From Methylotenera sp. (GTDB lineage Bacteria > Pseudomonadota > Gammaproteobacteria > Burkholderiales > Methylophilaceae), in the NCBI GenBank assembly GCA_028688575.1, contig JAQTXW010000003.1:1-64000 (forward strand): DNA of 64,000 nt. The letters are read 5' to 3'. Below are positions 1 to 37,922 of this stretch, piece by piece; the stretch's first letter is position 1, and the number at the start of each line of letters is the position of its first letter. Position numbers and translations under genes: made by a program. The notes under the pieces are model-generated. The model was given only the letters and a program-made list of their open reading frames with translations. It did not search any database and was not told where the DNA came from.

Positions 1-127
1 TTGTGAAATATTGGAAACAGGTAATGATTCTTACCGTTTTAAGCACCGCAAAAGCCGTGCTCAGCAGAGTGAAAAAGTGGAAACAATTGGACGCTGATTA
101 GTGGAAAGTTTTGGACGCTGTTTGACA
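1..127 (+). mobile_element. Right end of an IS21-family insertion sequence (truncated by window edge)
   Basis: The stretch ends in TTTGACA, which matches the TG...CA termini of IS21-family elements. Two 20-bp near-identical direct repeats (GTGGAAACAATTGGACGCTG at 77-96 and GTGGAAAGTTTTGGACGCTG at 101-120) sit just inside that end. Multiple subterminal repeats of this kind are known at IS21-family ends as transposase (IstA) binding sites. The tail of an istB-like ORF runs into the first repeat. The left part of the element, including istA, lies outside the window, so completeness and target duplication cannot be judged. Confidence 0.75.
2..97 (+). CDS. istB: IstB-like helper ATPase of an IS21-family transposon, C-terminal 31 residues only
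   Basis: This is an open frame entering from the left edge and ending with TGA at 95-97. The visible peptide begins CEILETGNDSYRFKHRKS. From memory, this resembles the C-terminus of IS21-type IstB proteins (pattern CxIxETGNxSxRFK). IstB is the AAA+ ATPase that assists the IstA transposase. The last codons overlap the first subterminal repeat of the element, which is normal for compact IS21 elements. The AAA+ core is not in the window, so the call rests on the tail and the IS end. This ORF is too short for the supplied track. Confidence 0.6.
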   Translation, partial: CEILETGNDSYRFKHRKSRAQQSEKVETIGR

Positions 128-250
128 GATATATGGCTATTGGTGCAACGCAGACGTATGCATGATTAAAAAATGACCCTGTAAATAATTCTGTGTAAAT
201 GCTTTTTAGAGTGCATTAATTAAACATCTGAGCTAAAGCGGTTGTATTAT

Positions 251-281
251 AAAAAACCCCCAAAGCTTGAGGCTTCGGGGG
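251..281 (-). terminator. Rho-independent terminator, minus strand
   Basis: Read on the minus strand, a GC-rich stem (CCCCCGAAGC pairing with GCTTTGGGGG around a short loop, one mismatch) is followed directly by TTTTTT. This is a textbook intrinsic terminator. No protein gene on the minus strand ends just before it. It fits best as the 3' end of the candidate small RNA upstream. Confidence 0.75.
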
Positions 282-408
282 AACTTGCAATATCACAACA
301 AGCTATCGCTGTGTGTAGGGTGGGAAAGCAACTGAACATGCTGTTTATTTGTAATAAACAGCATGGCCTAGGTTCAGCACCTCCCCATAAGCGCAATTAA
401 ACTTGCGC
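251..408 (-). ncRNA. Candidate sigma-54-dependent small RNA, about 158 nt
   Basis: No convincing protein is encoded here, yet the minus strand holds an ordered set of signals. A sigma-54 motif lies at 433-418 and predicts a start near 408. It is followed by a 6-7 bp hairpin (arms 408-403 and 396-391). A long hairpin comes next: a perfect 12-13 bp inverted repeat at 337-365 with additional outer pairing of CTGAAC and GTTCAG at 332-377. The intrinsic terminator at 281-251 ends the series. The promoter-hairpin-hairpin-terminator order on one strand is what a small regulatory RNA gene looks like. It does not match 6S, tmRNA, SRP or RNase P RNA as far as I can recognise. Function and targets are unknown. 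Confidence 0.4.
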
Positions 409-417
409 TGTATAGCT

Positions 418-433
418 TGCAATCCGTGTGCCA
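418..433 (-). promoter_or_regulatory. Sigma-54 (RpoN) -24/-12 promoter
   Basis: The minus strand reads TGGCAC-N5-TTGCA, with exactly 10 nt between the invariant GG and GC. This fits the RpoN consensus TGGCAC-N5-TTGCW at every specified base. It lies in non-coding DNA and points at the structured region 408-251. An AT-rich stretch with a 14-bp palindrome (ATATTTATAAATAT, 471-484) lies upstream, where a DNA bend or activator site could sit. No clear enhancer-binding-protein repeat was identified. Confidence 0.6.
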
Positions 434-666
434 GGTGTGGTTTTTTTTGATAGTGTGCTGTTTTTATTGAATATTTATAAATATCGTGAGTTTTTTGTAT
501 GGTTGAAATCAGCCATTGGTTGCTGTAAATAGCCAACACAACGATGGTGAGTCAGATAGACATGCGCCTACAGGCCAGACCGTAAGGCGGCTCACGCTTA
601 GATCAGTATTTTCTTTAATGCGGGATTTTGCGCAAGATGCTGGGTCAATCAGTGCATAGGTTATGC

Positions 667-1167
667 TTAGGCTGATGGGGTTTGATATTGGATGTGAATG
701 ATTTCAAACGAGGCGTCCCCTTGCGGGGTGCTGACACGAATGGTGTCGCCTGTGGTTTTGCCCATCATGGATTTTGCTAGTGGTGAAACCCAGCTGATAT
801 GGCCCTTGCTGGGTTCAAGTTCATCTTTGCCTACAATGCGGTAGGTGTGCTCAGTGTCATCGTCCAGATTGTACAAGGTGACCCATGCGCCAAAGTAGAC
901 TTTTTCCAGATGTTGTTGTTGGCTAGCATCCACAATTTCGGCTAAATCCATGCGCCGCATGAGATGGCGGCAACGGCTATCAATCTGGCGTAAGCGACGT
1001 TTGCCATAGATGTAGTCGCCATTTTCACTGCGGTCACCATTGCCCGCTGCCCACGAAACAGTGCGAACAACTTCTGGACGTTCTACTTTGTAAAGCTGAT
1101 GGAATTCTGCTTTGAGCGCAGCAAAGCCTTCAGGGGTGATGTAGTTTTTTTCGTCGGTAGCGGCCAT
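667..1167 (-). CDS. greB: Transcription elongation factor GreB
   Basis: The protein is 166 aa when started at the ATG giving MAATDEKNYITPEGF; the ORF-track start 35 codons upstream has no Gre similarity and lies inside the neighbouring gene. GreB enters the RNA polymerase secondary channel and stimulates cleavage of backtracked RNA. The coiled-coil tip GDRSENGDYIYGKRRL carries the acidic D/E residues that act at the active site, and the YIYGKRRLRQID signature separates GreB from GreA. The C-terminal FKBP-like domain follows. It sits 7 bp after the small membrane-protein gene, so the two are probably co-transcribed. No strong ribosome-binding site is seen. Confidence 0.93.
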   Translation of the reverse strand: MAATDEKNYITPEGFAALKAEFHQLYKVERPEVVRTVSWAAGNGDRSENGDYIYGKRRLRQIDSRCRHLMRRMDLAEIVDASQQQHLEKVYFGAWVTLYNLDDDTEHTYRIVGKDELEPSKGHISWVSPLAKSMMGKTTGDTIRVSTPQGDASFEIIHIQYQTPSA

Positions 1168-1174
1168 GAGGTGG

Positions 1175-1567
1175 TTACTGGCTGGCCTTGCTTTTGTCCA
1201 GCAGTTGTACATCCTTGATATAAAAGCTTGTATCGCCAAAACAGCTGGTTGGCACGCCTTTATGTTCTTCATAAATCAAGCGCACGCGTTCACCAACAGT
1301 CTGGTTAATTTTTTTTGCGACGTTTTCATCCCTGACGGTAAAAAAGAATTTTTCGGCCTGTGTGCCTGGCATGGACACTAAAATAAGCTCACCTTCATAG
1401 GTTTTACATAGCCAGCCTTTTTGCGAAAGTTTTTGCACATAGCCTGCGCGCTCACCCGAGGAGTAAACCCAGTTTAATGAAGCCCATGTGTAGAGCGCTA
1501 GCAGGCTGATGGGGAGTAGTAACAAAAGAATCGCATAAGTCAGTATTTTTTTTAGTCGAGCTATCAT
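1175..1567 (-). CDS. Small membrane-anchored protein of unknown function
   Basis: A 130-aa protein with a basic N-terminus (MIARLKKIL), one long hydrophobic segment at about residues 9-33, and a soluble region predicted to be periplasmic. That region holds two cysteines (GWLCKTYEGEL and PTSCFGDTSF) that could form a disulfide. I do not recognise an enzymatic motif. Short single-span proteins of this type occur next to greB in betaproteobacteria, sometimes under unrelated names, so a functional label would be unsafe. It is the likely first gene of a two-gene unit with greB. Confidence 0.6.
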   Translation of the reverse strand: MIARLKKILTYAILLLLLPISLLALYTWASLNWVYSSGERAGYVQKLSQKGWLCKTYEGELILVSMPGTQAEKFFFTVRDENVAKKINQTVGERVRLIYEEHKGVPTSCFGDTSFYIKDVQLLDKSKASQ

Positions 1568-1642
1568 GGTGGGGTTGGGGCTTTCGTTGGTGAATCTGCC
1601 TATTTTATTTGCCTATTACAAATAATCCAATAGAATTGTGAA

Positions 1643-4366
1643 ATGACTTTGAAGCCGATTATTCTTTGCCCTTCAGCCCGCCTCGCGCGCAGTATCCAAA
1701 ACGACATAGCACAGCAACAGCTTCTGTTAGCAAAAAGCCAATGGCTCAGTCCTGAAGTGCTGACTTTATCGCAATGGTTAGAGCGAGTGATAGAAGAGGG
1801 TTTGCTGACAGGTGAGATTGTAGCGCAGTCAACGCCTTATGTTTTAACTGCCTTTAACGAGCAGACAATGTGGCAAGAGGTGATTGCACAATCGCTAAAG
1901 AAACACGCATTGGGCGAGTTGTTTGATGTGGCTGGCCTGGCGAAAGCGGCGATGGAGGCCAACCGTTATGTGGTGGCTTGGCATTTAGACATAGCCAGCG
2001 AACATCAGGCAGAAGAATCGCGCCAGTTTATGTTGTGGCAGCAGGCTTTTCAGGTGCGCTGTGCTGAGTTAAATGTCCTGGAAAGCGTGCGTTATATTGA
2101 TTGGCAGCTGTCTTATTTGCGCAATACCCGTAGTGCGCTACCACCTCATGTTGAGTTTGCTGGGTTTGACCAGACGGCACCACAAGAAAAACGGCTGCGC
2201 GATATTTTAATGCAGCGTGGCGTAACGGTGGTTGATTATGCCACCACGGCAAACGCGGCTGGGCAGGCAGCTCAGGTGTGCTTGGAAAATGAAGAAGCTG
2301 AATGCAGGGCCGCAGTTGCGTGGGCCGCATCGTACCTGAATGAGCATCCACAAGCCACAATTGCCATCGTAACCCCCAAGTTAAGTGAGGTGAGAAACCA
2401 GCTTGCTGATTTACTGGATGATGTTTTTTATCCTGAGAGTGTGCGCCCCAGCTTGGTTGCCATATCGCGATGCTATAATTTTTCTTTAGGGACACCCCTT
2501 GCACAGCAGCCTGTGATTCAAGCTGCACTGAATTTATTAAGGTTAGTGACAGCGTATCAGCTAGCCTATGCCGATGTTTCTGCGATGCTGCTTTCTCCGT
2601 TTTGGTCGGCGAGCAGTGAAGAGGCGGATGCAAGGGCAATGCTGGATGTACGCATGCGTGAAAAGCTGCCGATGCAGTTTACATTGCCGCGCTTTATTGA
2701 ATTTGCGCAAAAGCAATATGATGATGGTTTGAAGATTGCGCAGCTCCTGCATGACCTTAAAGCGACGATCGCTGCAACTCCTGGCAGTTCAGCACCAGCT
2801 TCACACTGGAGTAGCTTATTGGATCGTTTGCTCAATCTTTTGCGCTGGCCAGGTGAGCGCAATATCACCAGCCTGGAATATCAGGCGCTGAACGCCTGGC
2901 AAAAAGCATTGCAGCAGCTGGCACAGCTCGATGTGTTGGGTAGGCGCCTCTCAGCAAGCCAGGCGGTTGCTTATTTACAGCAAATTTGTACTGAACAGGT
3001 GTTTCAGCCAGAAACCGAACAAACCCCAATGATTCAGATATTGGGTATGATGGAAGGGCTGAGTCAGCCTGTGGATGCGATTTGGTGTATGCATATGAAC
3101 GACCATCTCTGGCCACCTCCAGCACGTCCCAACCCGTTATTGCCTGCATTTATTCAGCGCTTGGCAGGCTTGCCAAATGCCGATGATCGTGTTCAGGCAG
3201 CCTTTGCAGCCGCTATACACCAGCGCATTGTGCATTCAGCACAGCAGGTGATATTTTCAAGCAGCCGTACCGAAGGCGAGAGCCAGTTGCGCGTTTCCCC
3301 CCTGATGCAAAGTATTTCTCCATTAAACACTTTGCCAAATTTAGCCAGCACTTTAGCTGAGCAATTAAGTGCTGGCGCACACCAGACCTTAGTGCATGTG
3401 GATGACCATATGGCACCGATTGTCAAAGAAGGGGAGCATGTTTCAGGTGGCACAGGTTTATTAAAAGCGCAGGCCATTTGTCCTGCATGGGCTTTTTACC
3501 AATATCGACTTGGTGCCAAAGCGCTTAAAACACCCACAAGTGGTTTGGATAGCATGGCGCGAGGTTCATTGGTGCACGATGTACTTGAACGGTTCTGGCG
3601 TAAACGGCATTTTGCTGATTTGCGCGATATGTCACTGGATGCTTTTAAGCAAGCCTTGACACAGGCTGTGGTACATAGTCTGGAGGCTTTTGCCGATGAT
3701 AATGAGGTGCTGACCCCTGCCATGCGTGAGTTAGAGCATGAGCGACTGTTACAGCTGGTCGGTGATTGGCTACAGTTTGAAAAGTCGCGTGGTGTTGCTT
3801 TTAAAATAGTGGGATGTGAAATCAGTAAAGTGGTGCAAATTTGCGGCATAGAAGTCACCTTGAAAATAGACCGTATTCATGAGTTGGAAAACGGTGGATT
3901 AGCCTTTGTAGACTATAAGACTGGGCAAATCCCAAAAACAAAAAACTGGGGTGAGGACCGTATTACAGAGCCGCAGTTGCCTATTTATGCCAGTTTCTAT
4001 GCAGATAAAGACCTGCCTGTGGCTGGTGTTTATTTTGGCATGGTGAAAACCGCGGAGCATGAATTCTCAGGCGTGGGTGAAGCGGATTTTGAGGTGGAGC
4101 AGGCCAAACGCGCTCCGGCTTATCTTCAGGACTTTACAGATTGGCCAGATTTATTAACGCATTGGAAAGCTTCGATAGAAGCCATCGCCATGGAAATTAG
4201 GGCTGGGCAGGCAGGTACATACTTTAGTGATGATGCGGATTTGATGTATTGTGAAGTGCTGCCCTTACTGAGGTTGCCTGAACGTAAATTACAGTTTGAG
4301 CGATTTCAACGTGCAGATGCACAAGCACAGGCACAGGTGCAACCTGGATCAGGCGGTGATGTATGA
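1643..4366 (+). CDS. AddB-like PD-(D/E)XK nuclease / inactive helicase (TIGR03623-type DNA repair protein)
   Basis: This 907-aa protein is one half of an AddAB-like double-strand-end processing pair. The N-terminal two thirds is a helicase-like fold without a Walker A motif, as in Gram-negative AddB proteins. The C-terminal nuclease has its elements in order: CPAWAFYQYRL and RGSLVHDVLERFW (His), LKIDRIHE (Asp), FVDYKTG (Asp-x-Lys), EPQLPIYA (Gln...Tyr). The iron-sulfur staple usual for AddB nucleases appears eroded. After the nuclease only one cysteine remains, in LMYCEVLPLL, where a CxxC-x5-C pattern is expected. The stop overlaps the start of the helicase partner in ATGA, implying translational coupling. 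Confidence 0.85.
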   Translation: MTLKPIILCPSARLARSIQNDIAQQQLLLAKSQWLSPEVLTLSQWLERVIEEGLLTGEIVAQSTPYVLTAFNEQTMWQEVIAQSLKKHALGELFDVAGLAKAAMEANRYVVAWHLDIASEHQAEESRQFMLWQQAFQVRCAELNVLESVRYIDWQLSYLRNTRSALPPHVEFAGFDQTAPQEKRLRDILMQRGVTVVDYATTANAAGQAAQVCLENEEAECRAAVAWAASYLNEHPQATIAIVTPKLSEVRNQLADLLDDVFYPESVRPSLVAISRCYNFSLGTPLAQQPVIQAALNLLRLVTAYQLAYADVSAMLLSPFWSASSEEADARAMLDVRMREKLPMQFTLPRFIEFAQKQYDDGLKIAQLLHDLKATIAATPGSSAPASHWSSLLDRLLNLLRWPGERNITSLEYQALNAWQKALQQLAQLDVLGRRLSASQAVAYLQQICTEQVFQPETEQTPMIQILGMMEGLSQPVDAIWCMHMNDHLWPPPARPNPLLPAFIQRLAGLPNADDRVQAAFAAAIHQRIVHSAQQVIFSSSRTEGESQLRVSPLMQSISPLNTLPNLASTLAEQLSAGAHQTLVHVDDHMAPIVKEGEHVSGGTGLLKAQAICPAWAFYQYRLGAKALKTPTSGLDSMARGSLVHDVLERFWRKRHFADLRDMSLDAFKQALTQAVVHSLEAFADDNEVLTPAMRELEHERLLQLVGDWLQFEKSRGVAFKIVGCEISKVVQICGIEVTLKIDRIHELENGGLAFVDYKTGQIPKTKNWGEDRITEPQLPIYASFYADKDLPVAGVYFGMVKTAEHEFSGVGEADFEVEQAKRAPAYLQDFTDWPDLLTHWKASIEAIAMEIRAGQAGTYFSDDADLMYCEVLPLLRLPERKLQFERFQRADAQAQAQVQPGSGGDV

Positions 4367-37595: not shown

Positions 37596-37877
37596 CTAGC
37601 TTAAATCAACACGTTCGCGTAGCTCTTTACCCGCTTTAAAGTGAGGTACATGTTTTGCAGGTACCTGCACTTTACTGCCAGTTTTAGGGTTGCGACCTAA
37701 GCGAGGTGGGCGGTAATTTAAACTGAAACTGCCAAAGCCTCTAATTTCAATGCGCTCGCCAGCAGCAAGATTATCAGACATCGCGTCCAAAATTGCTTTA
37801 ACTGATAGCTCTGCATCTTTCATCACTAATTGCGGAAAACGCTCCGCAAGTAGTGTGATTAACTCAGATTTTGTCAT
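37596..37877 (-). CDS. ihfB: Integration host factor beta subunit
   Basis: A 93-aa DNA-bending protein. The HU/IHF fold is clear, with the beta-arm motif [20 protein letters not shown] carrying the proline that intercalates into DNA. The N-terminus [17 protein letters not shown] is typical of IhfB rather than IhfA or HU. It is 45 bp downstream of rpsA, a conserved proteobacterial pairing, and is followed by a strong terminator. IHF normally assists sigma-54 promoters, relevant to the motif at the left edge. Confidence 0.96.
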
Positions 37878-37922
37878 GCTGTGTGCCTTTTTTCTTAAGA
37901 CTAAAATAAAGCGCTAAAAAGC

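Follow-up and report, generated by a model that had tools for sequence, protein, structure and literature searches.

The minus strand of the window at 408-251 (the window being the whole stretch of 64,000 nucleotides of Methylotenera sp. DNA that was analysed) almost certainly encodes a genuine sigma-54-dependent small RNA (sRNA), judging from its sequence and from those of its relatives. The candidate put forward in the initial annotation is borne out by a promoter kept in all seven known copies of the element, by a covarying stem, and by palindromes of the activator-site type in six of the seven. The sRNA represents a new family, of bacteria that grow on methanol and methylamine, that is supported by covariation and has no Rfam entry. 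Small RNAs that depend on sigma-54 have been described in a small number of bacterial groups, and the present family is an addition with covariation support. The promoter, the RNA and the family are all well supported; the identity of the activator and of the target, considered further below, is proposed with less assurance.

The sigma-54 promoter and the structure of the RNA

The features of the locus, in the coordinates of the window, are the following.

501-534, minus strand: two palindromic putative activator sites, GGCTATTTACAGCAACC (534-518) and GGCTGATTTCAACC (514-501); a similar site at a similar distance is found in five of the six other homologues
418-433, minus strand: sigma-54 -24/-12 promoter, TGGCAC-ACGGA-TTGCA; kept in all seven homologues
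391-408, minus strand: first hairpin of the sRNA (predicted fold), at its 5' end, which begins at or close to the predicted +1; a similarly placed hairpin of divergent sequence is found in most or all homologues
321-387, minus strand: long conserved hairpin (fold, covariation, covariance models R1 and R3)
366-372, minus strand: putative seed CCUAGGC, a bulge exposed on the 5' side; near-invariant across homologues
294-313, minus strand: small third hairpin (predicted fold), not conserved
251-281, minus strand: intrinsic terminator, a 10-bp stem followed by U6; its position varies among homologues
1-127, plus strand: tail of an IS21 istB gene and the element end (match to IS21 elements); a neighbour, outside the sRNA

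The sequence at 433-418 of the minus strand, TGGCACACGGATTGCA, is a perfect match to the -24/-12 element, as originally read, and the only exact copy of TGGCAC-N5-TTGCA in the 64-kb window, where 0.027 copies are expected from the base composition. GGCA[CT]-N5-TTGC is common to all seven homologues, each of which has the GG-N10-GC element at the correct distance from the RNA 5' end, and loss of the promoter in relatives was not seen. The bulge is located at a distance of 57-60 nt from the GG of the -24 element in six homologues and of 79 nt in the divergent genome G126, in which the 5' hairpin is longer. Upstream sites, as expected for an enhancer-binding activator (bEBP), are present in six of the seven homologues in the form of GGYT...AACC palindromes located 64-111 bp upstream of the -24 element; these are arranged in tandem in five homologues, including the window, single in G126 and missing in G145. 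The DNA-bending partner suggested earlier fares less well: ihfB is indeed encoded in the window (37599-37913, minus strand), but the region 5' of the window promoter has no match to the IHF consensus, even with one mismatch allowed, exact sites being found upstream of the sRNA in four of the seven homologues (G110, G115, G147 and G126).

The fold predicted for 408-240 has a free energy of -68.1 kcal/mol, against a mean of -41.55 for shuffled sequences (z -6.65; none of 200 shuffles was as good). It contains a 5' hairpin of 6 bp (408-403/396-391); the long hairpin (387-321), which consists of helices of 10 bp (387-378/330-321), 6 bp (377-372/337-332) and 12 bp (364-353/349-338) and carries a 7-nt one-sided bulge; a third hairpin of 8 bp (313-306/301-294); and the terminator, with a 10-bp helix (281-272/266-257) and U6 at 256-251. 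The initial annotation had described a +1 hairpin of 6-7 bp, a perfect hairpin of 12-13 bp with outer pairing and a strong intrinsic terminator, and all three are recovered, the second as the perfect 12-bp helix with the outer helices of 6 and 10 bp. The CUAGGC bulge is unpaired with a probability of ~0.9-1.0 in the folds of all seven homologues. In G121 and G126, a U run is located directly 3' of the long hairpin, which can itself act as a terminator; the other five homologues possess a separate terminator downstream of it.

The alignment of the seven sequences was fitted to the model structure, a bias in favour of pairing, and in this alignment 97.7% of the cells are paired and double-sided changes occur in six of the 19 pairs; none of 500 shuffles reached any of the five covariation measures, and sliding the partner columns by 1-3 lowered the pairing to 43-53%. 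The case for covariation stands despite the fitting because the G126 sequence by itself illustrates stem compensation: its long hairpin has GGGAAGAUU...UAAAAC with GUUUUA...AAUCUUCCC in place of GGGAGGGUG...CUGGAC with GUUCAG...UACCUUCCC, so that this divergent member rebuilds its stems yet retains CCUAGGCC. The compensatory changes that had been named as the test of the candidate are therefore present. No conserved open reading frame was detected among the homologues, in which the short frames vary in sequence and length and are absent from two; a coding role was accordingly rejected, in keeping with the original view that no credible protein is encoded.

Distribution of the family and comparison with known sRNAs

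A DNA search of 187 genomes of the family Methylophilaceae identified five more genomes with the element, all in the window's own genus, and a covariance model built from the six sequences retrieved the seventh, divergent member, G126. When retrained on seven sequences, the model recovered exactly those seven among the genomes of the family, all of them in the window's genus; the first model, applied to 369 genomes across the class, matched in the window genome only. The promoter, the bulge and the long hairpin are thus kept in the window and in six other Methylotenera-type genomes. A weak match of the first model in G039 was discarded, being coding-like, devoid of a sigma-54 element and lost with the retrained model.

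The Rfam scan of the window sRNA, which like the covariance search had been proposed at the outset, yielded no family at threshold, and cmscan of positions 1-3000 at E<=1 returned anti-hemB and rncO only. The former match (RF02837, Burkholderia RNA 7; 249-335, minus strand) is weak, at 25.8 bits below the gathering score of 49.5, and takes in the terminator. Among characterized systems, GlmY/GlmZ of enterobacteria (QseEF/RapZ) share with the window sRNA a structured RNA, a sigma-54 promoter and upstream sites for a response-regulator bEBP, but differ in sequence and structure, there being no Rfam match at E<=1. CrcZ/CrcY of Pseudomonas (CbrB-sigma-54) are likewise sigma-54 sRNA genes; CrcZ is the longer RNA and uses A-rich motifs to sequester Hfq/Crc, and no match to the window sRNA was obtained in Rfam at E<=1. 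The Qrr sRNAs of Vibrio (LuxO-sigma-54), multiple sRNAs under one activator (PMC10162802), resemble the present case as sigma-54 sRNAs controlled by a response-regulator bEBP but belong to a different host group and have different neighbours, again with no Rfam match to the window sRNA.

A candidate activator and a second sRNA type

A search of the genus for a palindrome half combined with a sigma-54 promoter led to a second type of sRNA, ~65 nt in length, with an invariant UCUCCAA, behind which most copies have a CU-rich, GCUCCC-like stretch, and with a terminator. The model of this sRNA matches 66 of the 187 Methylophilaceae genomes, including the window genome (C25:1150-1217, minus strand; model match). 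Among 29 copies inspected, the sigma-54 element is present in 28 and the palindrome in 23, and an Rfam scan of this sRNA gave nothing at threshold. In several genomes, it lies upstream of an iscX-like gene starting MKWTDSQAIAEALYDK.

Elsewhere in the family, the arrangement of palindrome and sigma-54 promoter is also found 5' of genes for TonB receptors or autotransporter-like proteins, and upstream of operons for a FecI-type ECF sigma factor and FecR in genera g14 and g15 (L135, L136, L138-L146). To judge by sequence, the latter operons would place an ECF sigma factor under sigma-54, an unusual type of cascade. A PepSY gene of G041 (genus g7) is followed by a palindrome, a sigma-54 promoter and a long hairpin without CUAGG (L183:1100-1300).

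The small genome of G041, with its palindrome and sigma-54 locus, encodes three bEBPs only, namely NtrC, an AtoC-like regulator and one directly behind the gene for a TonB-dependent receptor. The receptor and the sigma-54 response regulator stand side by side in the three genomes examined (L207:2431-6772, L208:10990-14936 and L209:4426-8276). Palindromes and a GG-N10-GC promoter precede the pair in the window genome, G115 and G041, and a receptor of the same kind in G128 has the same arrangement upstream. The receptor-linked bEBP, which consists of a receiver, a sigma-54 AAA+ domain and a Fis-type HTH, is found in all seven sRNA genomes. It is also found in 58 of the 66 genomes with the second sRNA versus 45 of the 121 without it, a correlation that is confounded by phylogeny and for part of which shared ancestry accounts. 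This response regulator, picked by synteny, is the best candidate for the activator of the sRNA and probably is the activator. GlrR/QseF-like activators were set aside, none having been detected in G115 and G126; a further difference from GlmY/GlmZ is that the HTH of the candidate does not resemble that of QseF/GlrR. A weaker alternative is the AtoC-like response regulator (L184 group), which all four genomes checked possess, at loci devoid of palindromes.

The window sRNA looks like one of two sRNA types apparently controlled by a single sigma-54 activator with a link to metal uptake. Counting the sister family, present in 66 Methylophilaceae genomes, an entire regulon of sRNAs would emerge, for which a candidate activator can be named.

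The PepSY leader and the function of the sRNA

The explanation that best accounts for the observations as a whole, and that appears reasonably likely, involves a trans-acting sigma-54 sRNA, an activator linked to the TonB-dependent receptor, and a bulge that acts as a seed on the leader of a lanpepsy-like mRNA; its computed basis consists of the promoter, the fold, the covariation, the conservation of the bulge and the co-occurrence of activator sites. Under this model, a non-coding sRNA of ~155 nt would be transcribed from the sigma-54 promoter, with an enhancer-binding activator bound at the GGYTG-N4-CAACC-type palindromes some 70-100 bp upstream of the -24 element. The activator would most likely be the response regulator behind the TonB-dependent receptor, whose operon likewise has a sigma-54 promoter and these palindromes. 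The rigid long hairpin would display CCUAGGC as a lateral bulge, and this bulge would serve as the seed for target mRNAs, putatively in the first place the leader of the lanpepsy-like periplasmic protein. When the regulon of receptor and activator is on, the sRNA would presumably adjust this protein post-transcriptionally.

In five of the seven genomes (G110, G115, G145, G121 and G126), the sRNA is located directly behind a gene whose product has two PepSY domains; the other flank of the sRNA in G110 is occupied by a PQQ/cytochrome gene cluster, and in the window genome the PepSY gene is unlinked to the sRNA. The protein consists of 173 aa (171 in G126), with a signal-peptide-like start and two PepSY stretches. 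In size and in its two PepSY domains, it agrees with lanpepsy (LanP), described as periplasmic and ~19 kDa (PMC12482762); LanP of Methylobacillus flagellatus is reported to bind lanthanides (PMC12482762; PMC11845868, citing Hemmann et al. 2023). The sRNA-linked protein may do so too.

The PepSY mRNA leader contains CCUAGG just behind a -10-like element in all seven genomes. Its complementarity to the bulge spans 7 nt (8 nt in G126), within which complementarity and plain identity are indistinguishable in the core, CCUAGG being palindromic. The 195 kb examined contain 24 copies of CCTAGG, those of the sRNA and the leader included, and from this frequency its chance occurrence in one short leader is estimated at ~1%. 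Half of the leader site is predicted to be paired, and predictions of whole-transcript sRNA-leader duplexes, which opened both molecules, were left out of the evidence. Several PepSY promoters have palindromes alongside a TATAAT-type -10, so that the sRNA and its target may share a regulator. The leader as a target of the bulge is a lead, quite possible if short of probable.

The leader has a second hairpin, ACUGGUU-GCCAAA-AAUCAGU (L025-L031, upstream of the start codon), replaced in G126 by GUUGGUU-GCCUAA-AACCAAC, which suggests that the leader is structured. In genus g15, a sigma-54 sRNA candidate of three genomes (L147, L149, L182) has a long hairpin of similar type from which CUAGG bulges out laterally; at 10-11 bits with the model of the window sRNA, it is not claimed as a homologue. 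Many PepSY leaders of this genus contain CCUAG, and the CUAGG-type sRNA is found in only 3 of its 22 genomes, one of which lacks a CCUAG leader.

The recurrence of the CUAGG bulge on this unrelated-looking RNA would fit a different, unlikely scheme in which the sigma-54 sRNA binds a protein at the bulge (compare GlmY with RapZ, or CsrB-type sponges with CsrA) and the CCUAGG hairpin of the leader is a second site of the same protein. No unpaired element is better conserved than the bulge, and the CCUAGG sequences of the sRNA and the leader are identical, not merely complementary, both as protein binding would have it. However, in G126 the leader sequence GCCUAGGU is the exact 8-nt complement of ACCUAGGC in the sRNA, whereas identity extends over only 6 nt, and the RNA-binding domain of RapZ for GlmY/GlmZ is reported to be restricted to Enterobacteriaceae (PMC7073468). 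Quite unlikely, too, is that a sigma-54 sRNA of the same regulon has its main targets among other mRNAs, via the 3' arm, whose C/U-rich sequence UUCCCACCC is the complement of the Shine-Dalgarno-like GGGUGGGAA, the PepSY adjacency being incidental. Although this arm is conserved, and CUCC and CUCCC motifs, as is typical for Shine-Dalgarno blockers, occur in the sister family, the arm is locked in a strong helix in all homologues and its sequence changes in step with the opposite strand.

If the bulge does act as a seed on the PepSY leader, a more inclusive but doubtful proposition is that a single sigma-54 regulon, composed of the sRNA, the sister sRNA, the operon of TonB receptor and activator and the lanpepsy-like gene, manages the uptake of a scarce metal, possibly lanthanides, in methylotrophic betaproteobacteria, with the window sRNA tuning lanpepsy via the CCUAGGC bulge on a leader loop. 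A lanthanide signal for the regulon is speculative; should this reading be true, no earlier example of a small RNA in lanthanide biology is known to us. Through its links to a TonB receptor and to lanpepsy-type proteins, the regulon would offer a testable entry into metal sensing and handling in these methylotrophs.

The proximity of the sRNA to an IS21 end, pointed out in the initial annotation, is real, but a meaningful connection is not: in five other genomes the sRNA resides behind the PepSY gene with no IS there, and the IS21 end is a chance neighbour, unrelated to the sRNA. That no independent sRNA exists, and that a fortuitous promoter-like site and hairpin, or the IS21 element end, mimic one, is hardly credible: the locus is situated 124 bp from the IS21 end, at a contig edge, but the promoter, the spacing and the covarying stem are kept in seven genomes, five of the seven copies occupy another locus, and the IS match ends at 127. 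In the window, greB (667-1272, minus strand) is located upstream of the sRNA; none of the other genomes examined has it next to the sRNA, which indicates that the sRNA locus has been rearranged.
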